A DNA stretch of 64,000 nucleotides, from the NCBI GenBank assembly GCA_019455065.1, contig JACFNC010000019.1:1-64000 (forward strand), in the 5' to 3' direction. This document shows positions 10,162 through 14,457 of the stretch, in pieces; positions within the stretch are counted from its first letter, which is position 1, and each line of letters starts with the position of its first letter. A program made the translations under genes and the position numbers. This DNA is from Rhodospirillales bacterium (GTDB taxonomy: Bacteria; Pseudomonadota; Alphaproteobacteria; Rhodospirillales; Magnetospirillaceae). Under the pieces are notes generated by a model that did no database searches, had not been told where the DNA came from, and saw only the letters and a list, made by a program, of their open reading frames with translations.

Positions 10162-10303
10162 GCGCCCTCGCCTCCCGGATGCGCCCACGACTACCCATTA
10201 TTAACAGGGTTTGCGGGGCGCCTCCAGGGCGCTTGTGACGGACGGCGATGGCAGACGGATAGCCCCTCCCGCCGCCCGTCCGGGTCGACATTTCAGACGC
10301 GCG

Positions 10304-11323
10304 TCACTTCTGAAGGTAGTCCTGGGCCAGTACCTCGGCGATCTGGACCGCGTTGAGGGCGGCGCCCTTGCGCAGGTTGTCGGAGACGCACCAGAAGCTC
10401 AGGCCGTTCCTGATCGTGGGATCGCGGCGCAGGCGGCTGACATACACCGCATCCTCACCGGCGCATTCGACTGGCGTGACATAGCCCTCGTTGGCGCGGT
10501 AGTCGATAACCGACACGCCCGGCGCCTTGCGCAGGATCTCGCGCGCCTCGTCCTCGTCGACCGGCTTTTCGAACTCGACGTTCACGGCCTCGGAATGCCC
10601 GATGAACACCGGCACCCGCACGCAGGTGGCGTGGACCGCCACGTCGGGATCGAGGATCTTCCTCGTCTCCGCCGTCATCTTCCACTCTTCCTTGGTCGCC
10701 CCGTCCTCCATGAAGACGTCGATGTGGGGAATGACGTTGAAGGCGATCTGCTTGGTGAACTTCTGCTTCTTGACCGGATCGTTGACGTAGATGGCGCGGG
10801 TCTGCTCGAACAGTTCGTCCATGCCCTCCTTGCCGGCACCCGAAACCGACTGGTAGGTCGCCACCACCACGCGCTTGATCTTGAAGCGGTCGTGCAGCGG
10901 CTTCAGCGCCACCACCATCTGGATGGTCGAGCAGTTGGGATTGGCGATGATGCCGCGCTTGGTGTAGCCGGCGATGGCCTTGGCGTTGACCTCGGGCACC
11001 ACCAGGGGGACGTCCGGATCCATGCGGAAGTGCGAGGTGTTGTCGACCACCACGCACCCCGCGGCGGCGGCGCGCGGGCTGTGAACGGCCGAGACCTTGG
11101 CGCCGGGCGACGACAGGGCGATATCGCACCCCTTGAAATCGTAGGTCGCGAGGTCCTTGACCTTCAGCACCTGGTCCTCGCCGAACGACACCTCCTTACC
11201 GACCGAACGTTCGGAGGCGAGGGCGACCACCTCGTCGACCGGGAACTGGCGGTCCGCCAGCGTCTGCAACATTTCGCGCCCGACGTTGCCGGTGGCGCCG
11301 ATGACCGCAACTCTGTAACCCAT
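10304..11323 (-). CDS. asd: Aspartate-semialdehyde dehydrogenase
   Basis: A 339-residue enzyme that makes aspartate semialdehyde from aspartyl-phosphate with NADPH, the branch point to Lys, Thr, Met, Ile and diaminopimelate. Seen: the dinucleotide motif AVIGATGNVGREM at the N-terminus, the catalytic-cysteine segment IIANPNCSTIQMVVALKPL, and HSEAVNVEFEKP near the C-terminus. The ATG at 11323 begins exactly at the Rossmann strand; an in-frame extension to 11386 would run into the terminator hairpin and is rejected. It is preceded by a leader peptide and terminator (11370-11547) that look like an amino-acid-responsive attenuator. Confidence 0.97.
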   Translation of the reverse strand: MGYRVAVIGATGNVGREMLQTLADRQFPVDEVVALASERSVGKEVSFGEDQVLKVKDLATYDFKGCDIALSSPGAKVSAVHSPRAAAAGCVVVDNTSHFRMDPDVPLVVPEVNAKAIAGYTKRGIIANPNCSTIQMVVALKPLHDRFKIKRVVVATYQSVSGAGKEGMDELFEQTRAIYVNDPVKKQKFTKQIAFNVIPHIDVFMEDGATKEEWKMTAETRKILDPDVAVHATCVRVPVFIGHSEAVNVEFEKPVDEDEAREILRKAPGVSVIDYRANEGYVTPVECAGEDAVYVSRLRRDPTIRNGLSFWCVSDNLRKGAALNAVQIAEVLAQDYLQK

Positions 11324-11369
11324 TGCTCTCACTCCATCTCCGAACCCTCGACCGGCGCCCGCCCCAACG

Positions 11370-11403
11370 AAAAGGGCCCGCGCCATTGTCCGCGGGCCCT
11401 TTT
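11370..11403 (-). terminator. Attenuator terminator in the asd leader
   Basis: On the minus strand AAAAGGGCCCGCG (11403-11391) and CGCGGGCCCTTTT (11382-11370) form a perfect 13-bp stem with an 8-base loop. It ends in TTTT, 46 bases before the asd ATG. The segment CGCGGGCT (11430-11423), just after the leader-peptide stop, can instead pair with GGCCCGCG in the left arm (11398-11391) and would abolish the terminator. No complete gene lies upstream on this strand for it to terminate except the leader peptide. Confidence 0.8.
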
Positions 11404-11430
11404 CGGTTGTCGACAGCCGACCAGCCCGCG

Positions 11431-11547
11431 CTACGTCACGGTTTTCTTCGTAGTCAGGGTCTTGGTCGTGATGATGACGGACGCCGCCCGCCCGGCCTCT
11501 CGGCCGGCGGCTCGCCTGGAAACGGGCATGGGGCCACGATTCGACAC
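11431..11547 (-). CDS. Thr/Lys/Ile-rich leader peptide of asd
   Basis: A 38-residue frame from GTG 11547 to TAG 11431-11433. Its start has an excellent ribosome site, GGAGGA with a 6-base spacer (11559-11554). The last 14 residues are IITTKTLTTKKTVT: seven Thr, three Lys and two Ile, all products of the pathway that asd feeds. An internal ATG (11529) lacks a site. The codon run ACGACCAAG contains CGACCA (11468-11463), which can pair with TGGTCG (11423-11418) after the stop. A ribosome stalled on Thr/Lys codons would free that segment for the antiterminator. This is the layout of classical leader-peptide attenuators (thrL, ilvL types). Confidence 0.82.
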   Translation of the reverse strand: MSNRGPMPVSRRAAGREAGRAASVIITTKTLTTKKTVT

Positions 11548-11719
11548 TGCGGTTCCTCCGTCGCGGCGCGAGGATTACCCCAAAGCGCCGCGACCTGGCA
11601 AGTGGATTCTACGGGATCGTGCAGGTAGGAGTGACGCGATTAAGGTACGCGAACCCGATGAGCGCCTCCGCCGAGCGGGCAGGCCACTATAGTGAGAGAT
11701 TGGAATAGGTATAACAAGG

Positions 11720-13000
11720 ATGCGGCACGTGTATGGACGGTCCGTGAGTGACGCCCCGATGACGTTCATCACCGAGGCCCGTCTGATCGGGTTGGTGCGC
11801 GCACTTTCCTTTGCTCGCTCGCTGTCGGACATCACCTCGACCGTCACCCAGGCGGCACGCTCCATGGTGGGCGCCGACGGTGTGACCTTCGTACTGCGCG
11901 ACGGCGACCGCTGCTATTACGCCGACGAGGACGCCATCGGCCCGCTTTGGAAGGGCCAGCGATTCCCCGCCAAGGCATGCATTTCCGGCTGGTGCATGAT
12001 GCATCGCGAGACCGTCGTGCTCGAGGACATTTACGACGACGCACGCATCCCCGCCGATGCCTATCGCCCCACCTTCGTACGCAGCCTCGCGATGGTGCCG
12101 GTGCGCCCCGAGAATCCGATCGCGGCGATCGGCGCCTACTGGCGGACAGAACATCGCGCGAGCGAAGCCGAACTGGCCATCCTGCAGGCCGTGGCGGACG
12201 CAACCTCGCTGGCCATCAGCAACGTCGAGCTCAGTCTCACCCAGGAGCGACTGGCTGCGGAAAAGGAGCAGGTGGAAAGGGCCGCGGCGGCCAAGGTGCG
12301 CTCGCTCGCGGCGGCCAGCCACGATCTCCGCCAGCCGCTCCAGGCCGCCCAGCTTTTTCTCGAAACCCTGCGCCGCCAATTGAAGGATCCGAGGGACCTC
12401 AAGGTCCTCGAACTGGCCGGGCTCGCGCTCCAGGGGGGAGACAATCTGGCCATGAAACTGCTCGAACTCGCTCGCCTGGATGCGGGCGAGTTTCGGCCGC
12501 ATTTCAGTAACTTCGCATTGGGCGGCCTCATCGCCCAAATCGCGGCCGAGGCAAGAGTGCGGGCCGACATCGAGGGAACCACGTTGCGTGCGGTGGGCAC
12601 CTCGGCCGTCGTCCGCAGCGATCCCGACCTCGTCGCCAGAATAGTCCGCAACCTGGTTTCCAACGCCCTGAAGTTCGCCCGGGGCCGACGGGTCCTCATC
12701 GGTTGCCGGCGCACGGCCGGGTTCGCCCGCGTCGAGGTTTGGGATGCCGGCATCGGGATCGCGGACGACAAGCTGGGCCAAATCTTCGACGAGTTCTACC
12801 GCACGGGAGAGGCACGCGACAGCGGCGCGCCGGGTTTGGGTATCGGCTTGGCGGTCGTCCGCAAGCTCGCCACCCTCGTCGGCTCGAACGTCACCGTGCG
12901 TTCGGTCGTCGGCAAGGGGTCGGTGTTCGCCTTCGACCTACCGCTCGCGCGATCGGGCCGGAACCCATTGCCCCCGGGGCCGTTACCTCTCGCAGAGTGA
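11720..13000 (+). CDS. Soluble GAF-domain sensor histidine kinase
   Basis: A 426-residue kinase without membrane segments. A GAF sensor domain (about 20-175) contains FPAKACISGWCMMHRETVVLEDIYDD and is followed by a short coiled coil. Then come HisKA with ASHDLRQPLQA (phospho-acceptor His near 201) and a HATPase domain with NLVSNALKFARG, WDAGIGI and GLGIGLAV boxes. There is no receiver domain and no response regulator next to it, so its partner is encoded elsewhere. The start is uncertain between ATG 11720 and in-frame GTG 11744. The stop is 14 bp before a Cys-rich small protein, probably the same transcript. Confidence 0.88.
   Translation: MRHVYGRSVSDAPMTFITEARLIGLVRALSFARSLSDITSTVTQAARSMVGADGVTFVLRDGDRCYYADEDAIGPLWKGQRFPAKACISGWCMMHRETVVLEDIYDDARIPADAYRPTFVRSLAMVPVRPENPIAAIGAYWRTEHRASEAELAILQAVADATSLAISNVELSLTQERLAAEKEQVERAAAAKVRSLAAASHDLRQPLQAAQLFLETLRRQLKDPRDLKVLELAGLALQGGDNLAMKLLELARLDAGEFRPHFSNFALGGLIAQIAAEARVRADIEGTTLRAVGTSAVVRSDPDLVARIVRNLVSNALKFARGRRVLIGCRRTAGFARVEVWDAGIGIADDKLGQIFDEFYRTGEARDSGAPGLGIGLAVVRKLATLVGSNVTVRSVVGKGSVFAFDLPLARSGRNPLPPGPLPLAE

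Positions 13001-13350: not shown

Positions 13351-14457
<1,107 letters not shown>

Follow-up and report, generated by a model that had tools for sequence, protein, structure and literature searches.

Known threonine attenuators use threonine and isoleucine codons and act on thrABC, the enterobacterial thrL leader carrying isoleucine as its second residue. Asd makes the precursor shared by lysine, threonine, methionine, isoleucine and the diaminopimelate of the cell wall.

Among Alphaproteobacteria, passages of PMC4117421 describe leader-peptide attenuation of ilvIH and ilvBN in Caulobacter, with isoleucine and valine codons. For the tryptophan leader trpL of S. meliloti, passages of PMC10117765 and PMC7298713 report that the peptide and the sRNA also act in trans. 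The same passages of PMC10117765 describe SEP5, a translated S. meliloti sORF that has six Thr codons and three Lys codons toward its 3' end and lies within the 5' UTR of what the authors name an aspartate dehydrogenase gene; they propose it as a possible leader peptide, conserved only in Sinorhizobium. We infer that this downstream gene is asd. The available passages of PMC2965389, PMC1273637 and PMC4117421 do not mention an asd leader (in the last one, "asd" stands for anti-Shine-Dalgarno), and a search of titles and abstracts, largely outside the subscription literature, found none besides that of PMC10117765.

We analyzed a 64,000-nucleotide stretch of a Rhodospirillales genome (hereafter the window), in which the sequence upstream of asd very probably forms a conserved Thr/Lys leader-peptide attenuator working by classical ribosome stalling. 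Toward asd, the minus strand shows in order a promoter-like stretch, GGAGGA, a GTG frame, arm 2, a terminator hairpin and asd itself (Table 1). The letters agree with the original prediction of a 38-codon frame preceded by GGAGGA six bases before GTG 11547, and with its count of 12 Thr, Lys or Ile residues in the 14-residue tail IITTKTLTTKKTVT, which are 7 Thr, 3 Lys and 2 Ile. When the sequence is aligned with those of four family members, the GTG faces an ATG in all of them. The promoter-like stretch is kept in near relatives; a consensus promoter scan did not call it, and we treat it as putative.

Table 1. Features of the asd leader and its surroundings in the window
Feature	Position	Strand	Remarks
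Putative -35 box TTGCCA	11596..11601	-	CTTGCC invariant in the focal sequence and four aligned family members
Putative -10 box GGTAAT	11574..11579	-	16-nt spacer to -35; invariant in the same five-sequence alignment
Expected transcription start	~11567	-	Deduced from the putative promoter boxes
Shine-Dalgarno GGAGGA	11554..11559	-	Six bases ahead of GTG 11547; CGACGGA aligned in four relatives
Leader peptide ORF	11431..11547	-	GTG start, 38 codons and TAG; tail IITTKTLTTKKTVT; Thr/Lys tail conserved
Arm 1 CGACCA	11463..11468	-	Within the Thr/Lys codons; pairs with TGGTCG (fold, helix search)
Arm 2 CGCGGGCTGGTCG	11418..11430	-	Abuts the leader stop; pairs with arm 1 through its 3' part and with arm 3 through its 5' part
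Arm 3 GGCCCGCG	11391..11398	-	Lies in the left arm of the terminator; alternative partner for arm 2
Predicted terminator hairpin 3:4	11368..11405	-	15-bp stem, 8-nt loop, TTTT inside the 3' arm
RF00506 Thr_leader, sub-threshold match	11367..11474	-	47.5 bits, gathering 55
asd, aspartate-semialdehyde dehydrogenase (asd_B type)	10304..11323	-	ATG 11323; NF011456 528.3 bits (cut-off 223); TIGR01296 474.9 bits (cut-off 324.2)

The gene upstream, at 11720-13000, runs in the opposite orientation, and no obvious minus-strand gene ends at the leader. This gene resembles a sensor histidine kinase and separates asd from leuB (13351-14457), while in several relatives, as seen by eye, a leuB-like C-terminus ends within a few hundred bases upstream of asd. 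The N-terminal half of the leader frame contains a GC-rich self-complementary stretch on the minus strand (window 11482-11511), predicted to form a hairpin, which could pause RNA polymerase.

To evaluate the Thr/Lys tail we used 60 asd upstream regions, namely the focal one and those of 59 relatives of the order (asd was matched in all but one of 61 genomes). A short frame with at least 7 Thr/Lys in its last 14 codons precedes asd in 37 of the 60 genomes. The distribution is bimodal, with 7 to 11 Thr/Lys in these 37 and 0 to 5 in the other 23; the family of the focal genome contributes 29 of its 36 genomes and the rest of the order 8 of 24. Only one of 6000 dinucleotide shuffles of the same regions reached 7 of 14, and none of 5000 shuffles of the focal region exceeded 6, where the real tail has 10. 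The leader is therefore far beyond chance. Relatives with asd and no Thr/Lys frame, which the original prediction had named as evidence against itself, were in part found as well, being the 23 genomes just mentioned and, at the class level, 63 of 68 asd upstream regions.

For the comparison of leaders we collected 39 frames with at least 5 Thr/Lys ending upstream of -90, from which L032, L042 and L045 had been removed by hand; 37 of the 39 have at least 7 Thr/Lys, and L014 and L060 have 5. L019, a fragment of G010 with its upstream part cut, was dropped and substituted by L061. L041 and L042 were counted as lacking a leader and are possible weak leaders, with matches of a model built from these leaders (R1, see below) at asd of G037 and G048 (E 1.9e-5 and 4.4e-5).

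Every one of the 39 leaders has at least three Thr and one Lys in its last 14 codons. Thr makes up 42.7% of the tail residues versus 3.9% in the rest of the peptides, and Lys 15.4% versus 2.0%. The two Lys codons are about equally used in the tails (44 AAA, 40 AAG), whereas the pooled asd genes have 78 AAA against 756 AAG (pseudocount of 1 each); since asd genes prefer AAG, it seems that the Lys residue rather than one codon is kept. Across 51 related pairs the tail shows a pN/pS of 0.56, indicating modest purifying selection. Thr and Lys are thus well supported by these comparisons as the control residues. The original prediction had the attenuator tuned to Thr, Lys and Ile, of which the first two held in all 39 leaders; Ile, present in 15 of the 39 tails, is not enriched (3.1% of tail residues versus 2.8% elsewhere), and we rejected it as a third signal.

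Turning to the RNA, the arms can be arranged in two ways, either as 1:2 plus 3:4 or as 2:3 alone. Within arm 2, CGCGGGCT occupies 11430-11423 and TGGTCG 11423-11418; folding and a helix search gave the predicted pairing of the former segment with the terminator left arm and of TGGTCG with CGACCA, the 5' part CGCGGGC of arm 2 meeting GCCCGCG in helix 2:3. The minimum free energy structure of 11570-11340 (-117.6 kcal/mol, z -2.29; one of 200 shuffles equally stable) contains both 1:2 and 3:4. The terminator stem is formed by CGAAAAGGGCCCGCG and CGCGGGCCCTTTTCG (11405-11391 and 11382-11368), and the hairpin ends 44 nt before the asd start, leaving the ribosome site of asd uncovered in the focal sequence. 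A hairpin before asd had been foreseen as a 13-bp terminator ending in TTTT; the hairpin is there, but its stem has 15 bp and the TTTT lies inside its 3' arm. Our strict terminator scan, which requires at least 5 T in 8 bases, gave no site in 10200-12000, the T-run being short. The leaders collected from the order have terminator arms with a short T-run after them, and both the sequence and the position of their hairpin arms are conserved.

Helix 2:3 is better than in shuffled sequences for the focal leader (p 0.037) and, at p<0.05, for 25 of the 39 leaders, the remaining 14 not passing; in L012, L018 and L038 the script had picked a hairpin other than the aligned terminator. On alignment A1, which omits L005, L007, L013, L023, L028 and L049, 98.3% of the cells of this helix are paired, against 20-48% after sliding. 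Since the arms show little variation, none of its seven pairs changed on both sides in A1, and column shuffles paired as often (500 of 500). For helix 1:2, the overlap with the control codons is present in the layout and the pairing in the fold and helix search; only 3 of 39 leaders beat synonymous-codon randomization at p<0.05 (focal p 0.75), since any ACC-rich (Thr) tail pairs with a GGU-rich arm. The stop codon lies 0-5 nt ahead of arm 2 in 37 of the 39 leaders, and in the other two, L014 and L039, arm 2 by eye already starts on the final base of that codon.

Linked changes of the arms appear among the more divergent leaders. L060 has AACTGGC:GCCAGTT in helix 1:2 versus AACCGGC:GCCGGTT elsewhere, a silent change in a Thr codon, and in L049 arms 2 and 3 read TCGCGAGG:CCTCGCGG. 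L140, L146 and L157, from another family, show GCGGCC/GGCCGC/GCGGCC as arms 2/3/4 versus GCGGGCC/GGCCCGC/GCGGGCC, and L233 combines an arm 2 GCGGCCC with an arm 3 GGGGCCGC (both by eye). Such linked changes occur at these loci, but not inside helix 2:3 of A1 (0 of 7 pairs). In the sequences compared, they make the strongest case for the importance of the pairings. What is observed here comprises the parts and their conservation, the bias of the tails toward Thr and Lys, and pairings that exclude each other.

We consider, with a probability of about 0.87, that these parts make up a ribosome-mediated transcription attenuator of asd reading the charging of tRNA-Thr and tRNA-Lys. At the locus, codons for end-products of the asd pathway are clustered in a short frame that looks translated, antiterminator (2:3) and terminator (3:4) are predicted as mutually exclusive pairings, and the stop codon is sited so that a terminating ribosome would mask arm 2. 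We infer a promoter, stalling, termination and a response to Thr and Lys, which would work as follows. Transcription would start at ~11567, and translation of the leader at GTG 11547. Under a shortage of Thr-tRNA or of Lys-tRNA, the ribosome would stall in the ACC/ACG/AAG/AAA codons and cover arm 1, so that arm 2 would be free to pair with arm 3, no terminator would form and asd would be transcribed. With both Thr and Lys plentiful, it would reach the TAG abutting arm 2 and mask this arm, 3:4 would form and transcription would stop. When the leader is not translated, 1:2 would form and 3:4 would terminate (superattenuation).

We next consider what else could account for the locus. Threonine alone could be the signal, as in thrL, the Lys codons being kept for AAA/AAG in the mRNA or for RNA pairing. 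Thr certainly dominates the tails over Lys, seven of the 39 leaders have just one Lys among their last 14 codons (L007, L008, L017, L018, L046, L060 and L061), and the Rfam family that the locus resembles is the threonine leader. However, no tail among the 39 is devoid of Lys, a distant family has up to 4 Lys in 14 (L137 and L138, e.g. ETKTKTKKTTV), and the even use of AAA and AAG departs from the AAG-heavy asd genes; we regard this explanation as unlikely. Dual sensing fits an enzyme such as Asd, which supplies the lysine branch as well as the threonine branch, and we lean slightly toward a two-input branch-point sensor shared by several families of Alphaproteobacteria, in which a shortage of either Lys or Thr would suffice and whose RNA arms would have been re-invented or have drifted together.

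The leader and its hairpins might instead control the translation of asd or the access of Rho, with no intrinsic terminator involved. The short T-run would agree with this, and L206 and L239, whose Thr/Lys leaders showed no terminator in the scan, are possible versions of this type, the scan having missed the hairpin of L215 too; yet the focal terminator ends 44 nt before asd and spares its ribosome site, and the leaders of the order carry terminator arms with short T-runs, making such control improbable. That the frame encodes a functional small protein with an accidental Thr/Lys-rich end is still harder to sustain: the frame is uninterrupted and preceded by a good ribosome site, and passages of PMC10117765 report a Western band for SEP5-SPA in S. 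meliloti, but it is the tail that relatives keep, their N-terminal parts differing in sequence as well as in length, and the stop is locked to arm 2. GC-rich terminators are common and three weak R1 matches elsewhere (L141, L288 and L289) resemble plain gene-end terminators, so a chance frame beside an ordinary terminator was considered as well; the single shuffle in 6000 reaching 7 of 14, the finding of all 24 matches of an RNA-only pattern at asd (see below) and the opposite direction of the neighbor at 11720-13000, with no obvious minus-strand gene end here, leave it hardly any probability.

The occurrence of the Thr/Lys attenuator was explored with an RNA-only pattern built from arm 2 and the terminator, without peptide information, and scanned over 84,980 species. 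All of its 24 matches lie 46-89 nt upstream of asd, and each has, ahead of arm 2, a frame in whose 14-residue tail 7 to 10 residues are Thr or Lys. Their titles name Magnetospirillum, Paramagnetospirillum, Phaeospirillum, Telmatospirillum, Rhodospirillales, Rhodospirillaceae, proteobacterial MAGs and one Stygiobacter-labelled MAG; the set overlaps with our order-level genomes, many apparently being common to both.

At the class level, 5 of 68 asd upstream regions have at least 7 Thr/Lys (L157, L206, L215, L233 and L239), in a non-random sample, as it consists of the 68 top scorers among 97 other genomes with a match. L168 and L242 have no short frame at all, the latter being cut by the contig end. 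L215 was negative in the terminator scan, yet its fold shows a terminator-like hairpin. As 33 of the 39 leaders served to train model R1, most of its matches among the order-level genomes are not independent. The model matched 18 of 289 class genomes at E<=0.001; besides the focal genome and G009, 6 of 16 matches sit before asd with a leader (L137, L138, L139, L140, L142 and L146), two of them being the same places as L215 and L157. Of the other ten we read one, L141, which is a gene-end terminator, and by eye the weak matches in G050 and G023 (L288 and L289) follow the stop of a long frame; matches with E ~1e-5 or worse thus need checking. The class-level leaders come from six families outside the order (f27, f60, f63, f130, f146 and f173), and some more distant Alphaproteobacteria keep the layout with the pairing arms changed together. 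The leader thus occurs in several families, but is patchy and not universal.

The patchiness extends to close relatives, as G026 (L011) and G030 (L009) have no leader and belong to the same genus as the leader-bearing G013 and G022. By eye, L009 keeps a terminator GGCCCGCGG...GCGGGCCTTTTTT with a palindromic insertion-like sequence upstream and no Thr/Lys-rich frame, likely a loss of the leader. In L011, also by eye, very little separates a promoter-like stretch CTTGCC...GGGTAAT from half of a terminator-like structure and a T-run, and the leader frame seems to have been deleted. In the 200 bases nearest to asd, L022 (G023) has a long near-perfect inverted repeat that separates the attenuator from the gene and looks like a small inserted element; the leader stop is moved by it to -237.

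Other genes of the pathway showed no Thr/Lys leader in the regions read, the best counts being 5 of 14 before hom (22 of 23 loci readable), 3 before lysC (12 loci), 4 before dapA (12 loci, one without a frame) and 4 before thrC (13 loci); these regions were cut by distance from the domain match and some are short, so leaders elsewhere could be missed. In the focal genome, RF00506 and R1 each match only at the asd leader at E<=0.01 (66 of 153 and 89 of 2890 first-look candidates scored). The leader DNA found no match in a plasmid collection. A weak match of RcsR1 (RF02552) in L060 (31 bits, gathering 60) was dropped as chance; none of 385 class genomes reaches the cut-off of this family, and none of its five weak matches falls in the focal genome's own family.

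Compared with the known systems, the asd leader is most readily set beside enterobacterial thrL. RF00506 aligns with it from end to end (E 5.5e-7), both have a Thr-rich leader peptide and a terminator before an aspartate-family gene, and the consensus arms GCGGGC / GCCCGC / GCGGGC are like those found here. The score stays below the gathering threshold at the focal locus, none of 41 genomes reaches the cut-off, and no Rfam 15 family reached threshold at the focal locus or at the five relatives' loci searched; the asd leader would work like a thr attenuator and is not a member of RF00506 by the gathering rule. It differs from thrL in having Lys instead of Ile as the second residue, and in preceding asd and not thrABC (thrA or hom).

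As a probable alphaproteobacterial attenuator answering more than one amino acid it is similar to the Caulobacter ilv leaders described in the passages of PMC4117421, which differ in their branched-chain residues and ilv genes. With S. meliloti trpL (rnTrpL), as portrayed in the passages cited above, it has in common a leader peptide within an alphaproteobacterial attenuator, and by analogy the terminated leader RNA or the peptide may also act in trans. SEP5 is alike by description, the passages of PMC10117765 giving no hairpins or attenuation. The kind of control is therefore known, as thr-type attenuation with one printed hint in a rhizobium, and what is new is the Thr/Lys variant at asd. 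A brief suggestion made for one Sinorhizobium sORF becomes a feature seen in several alphaproteobacterial families, and if Lys and Thr are read together, one RNA switch would set a branch-point gene by two of its products.
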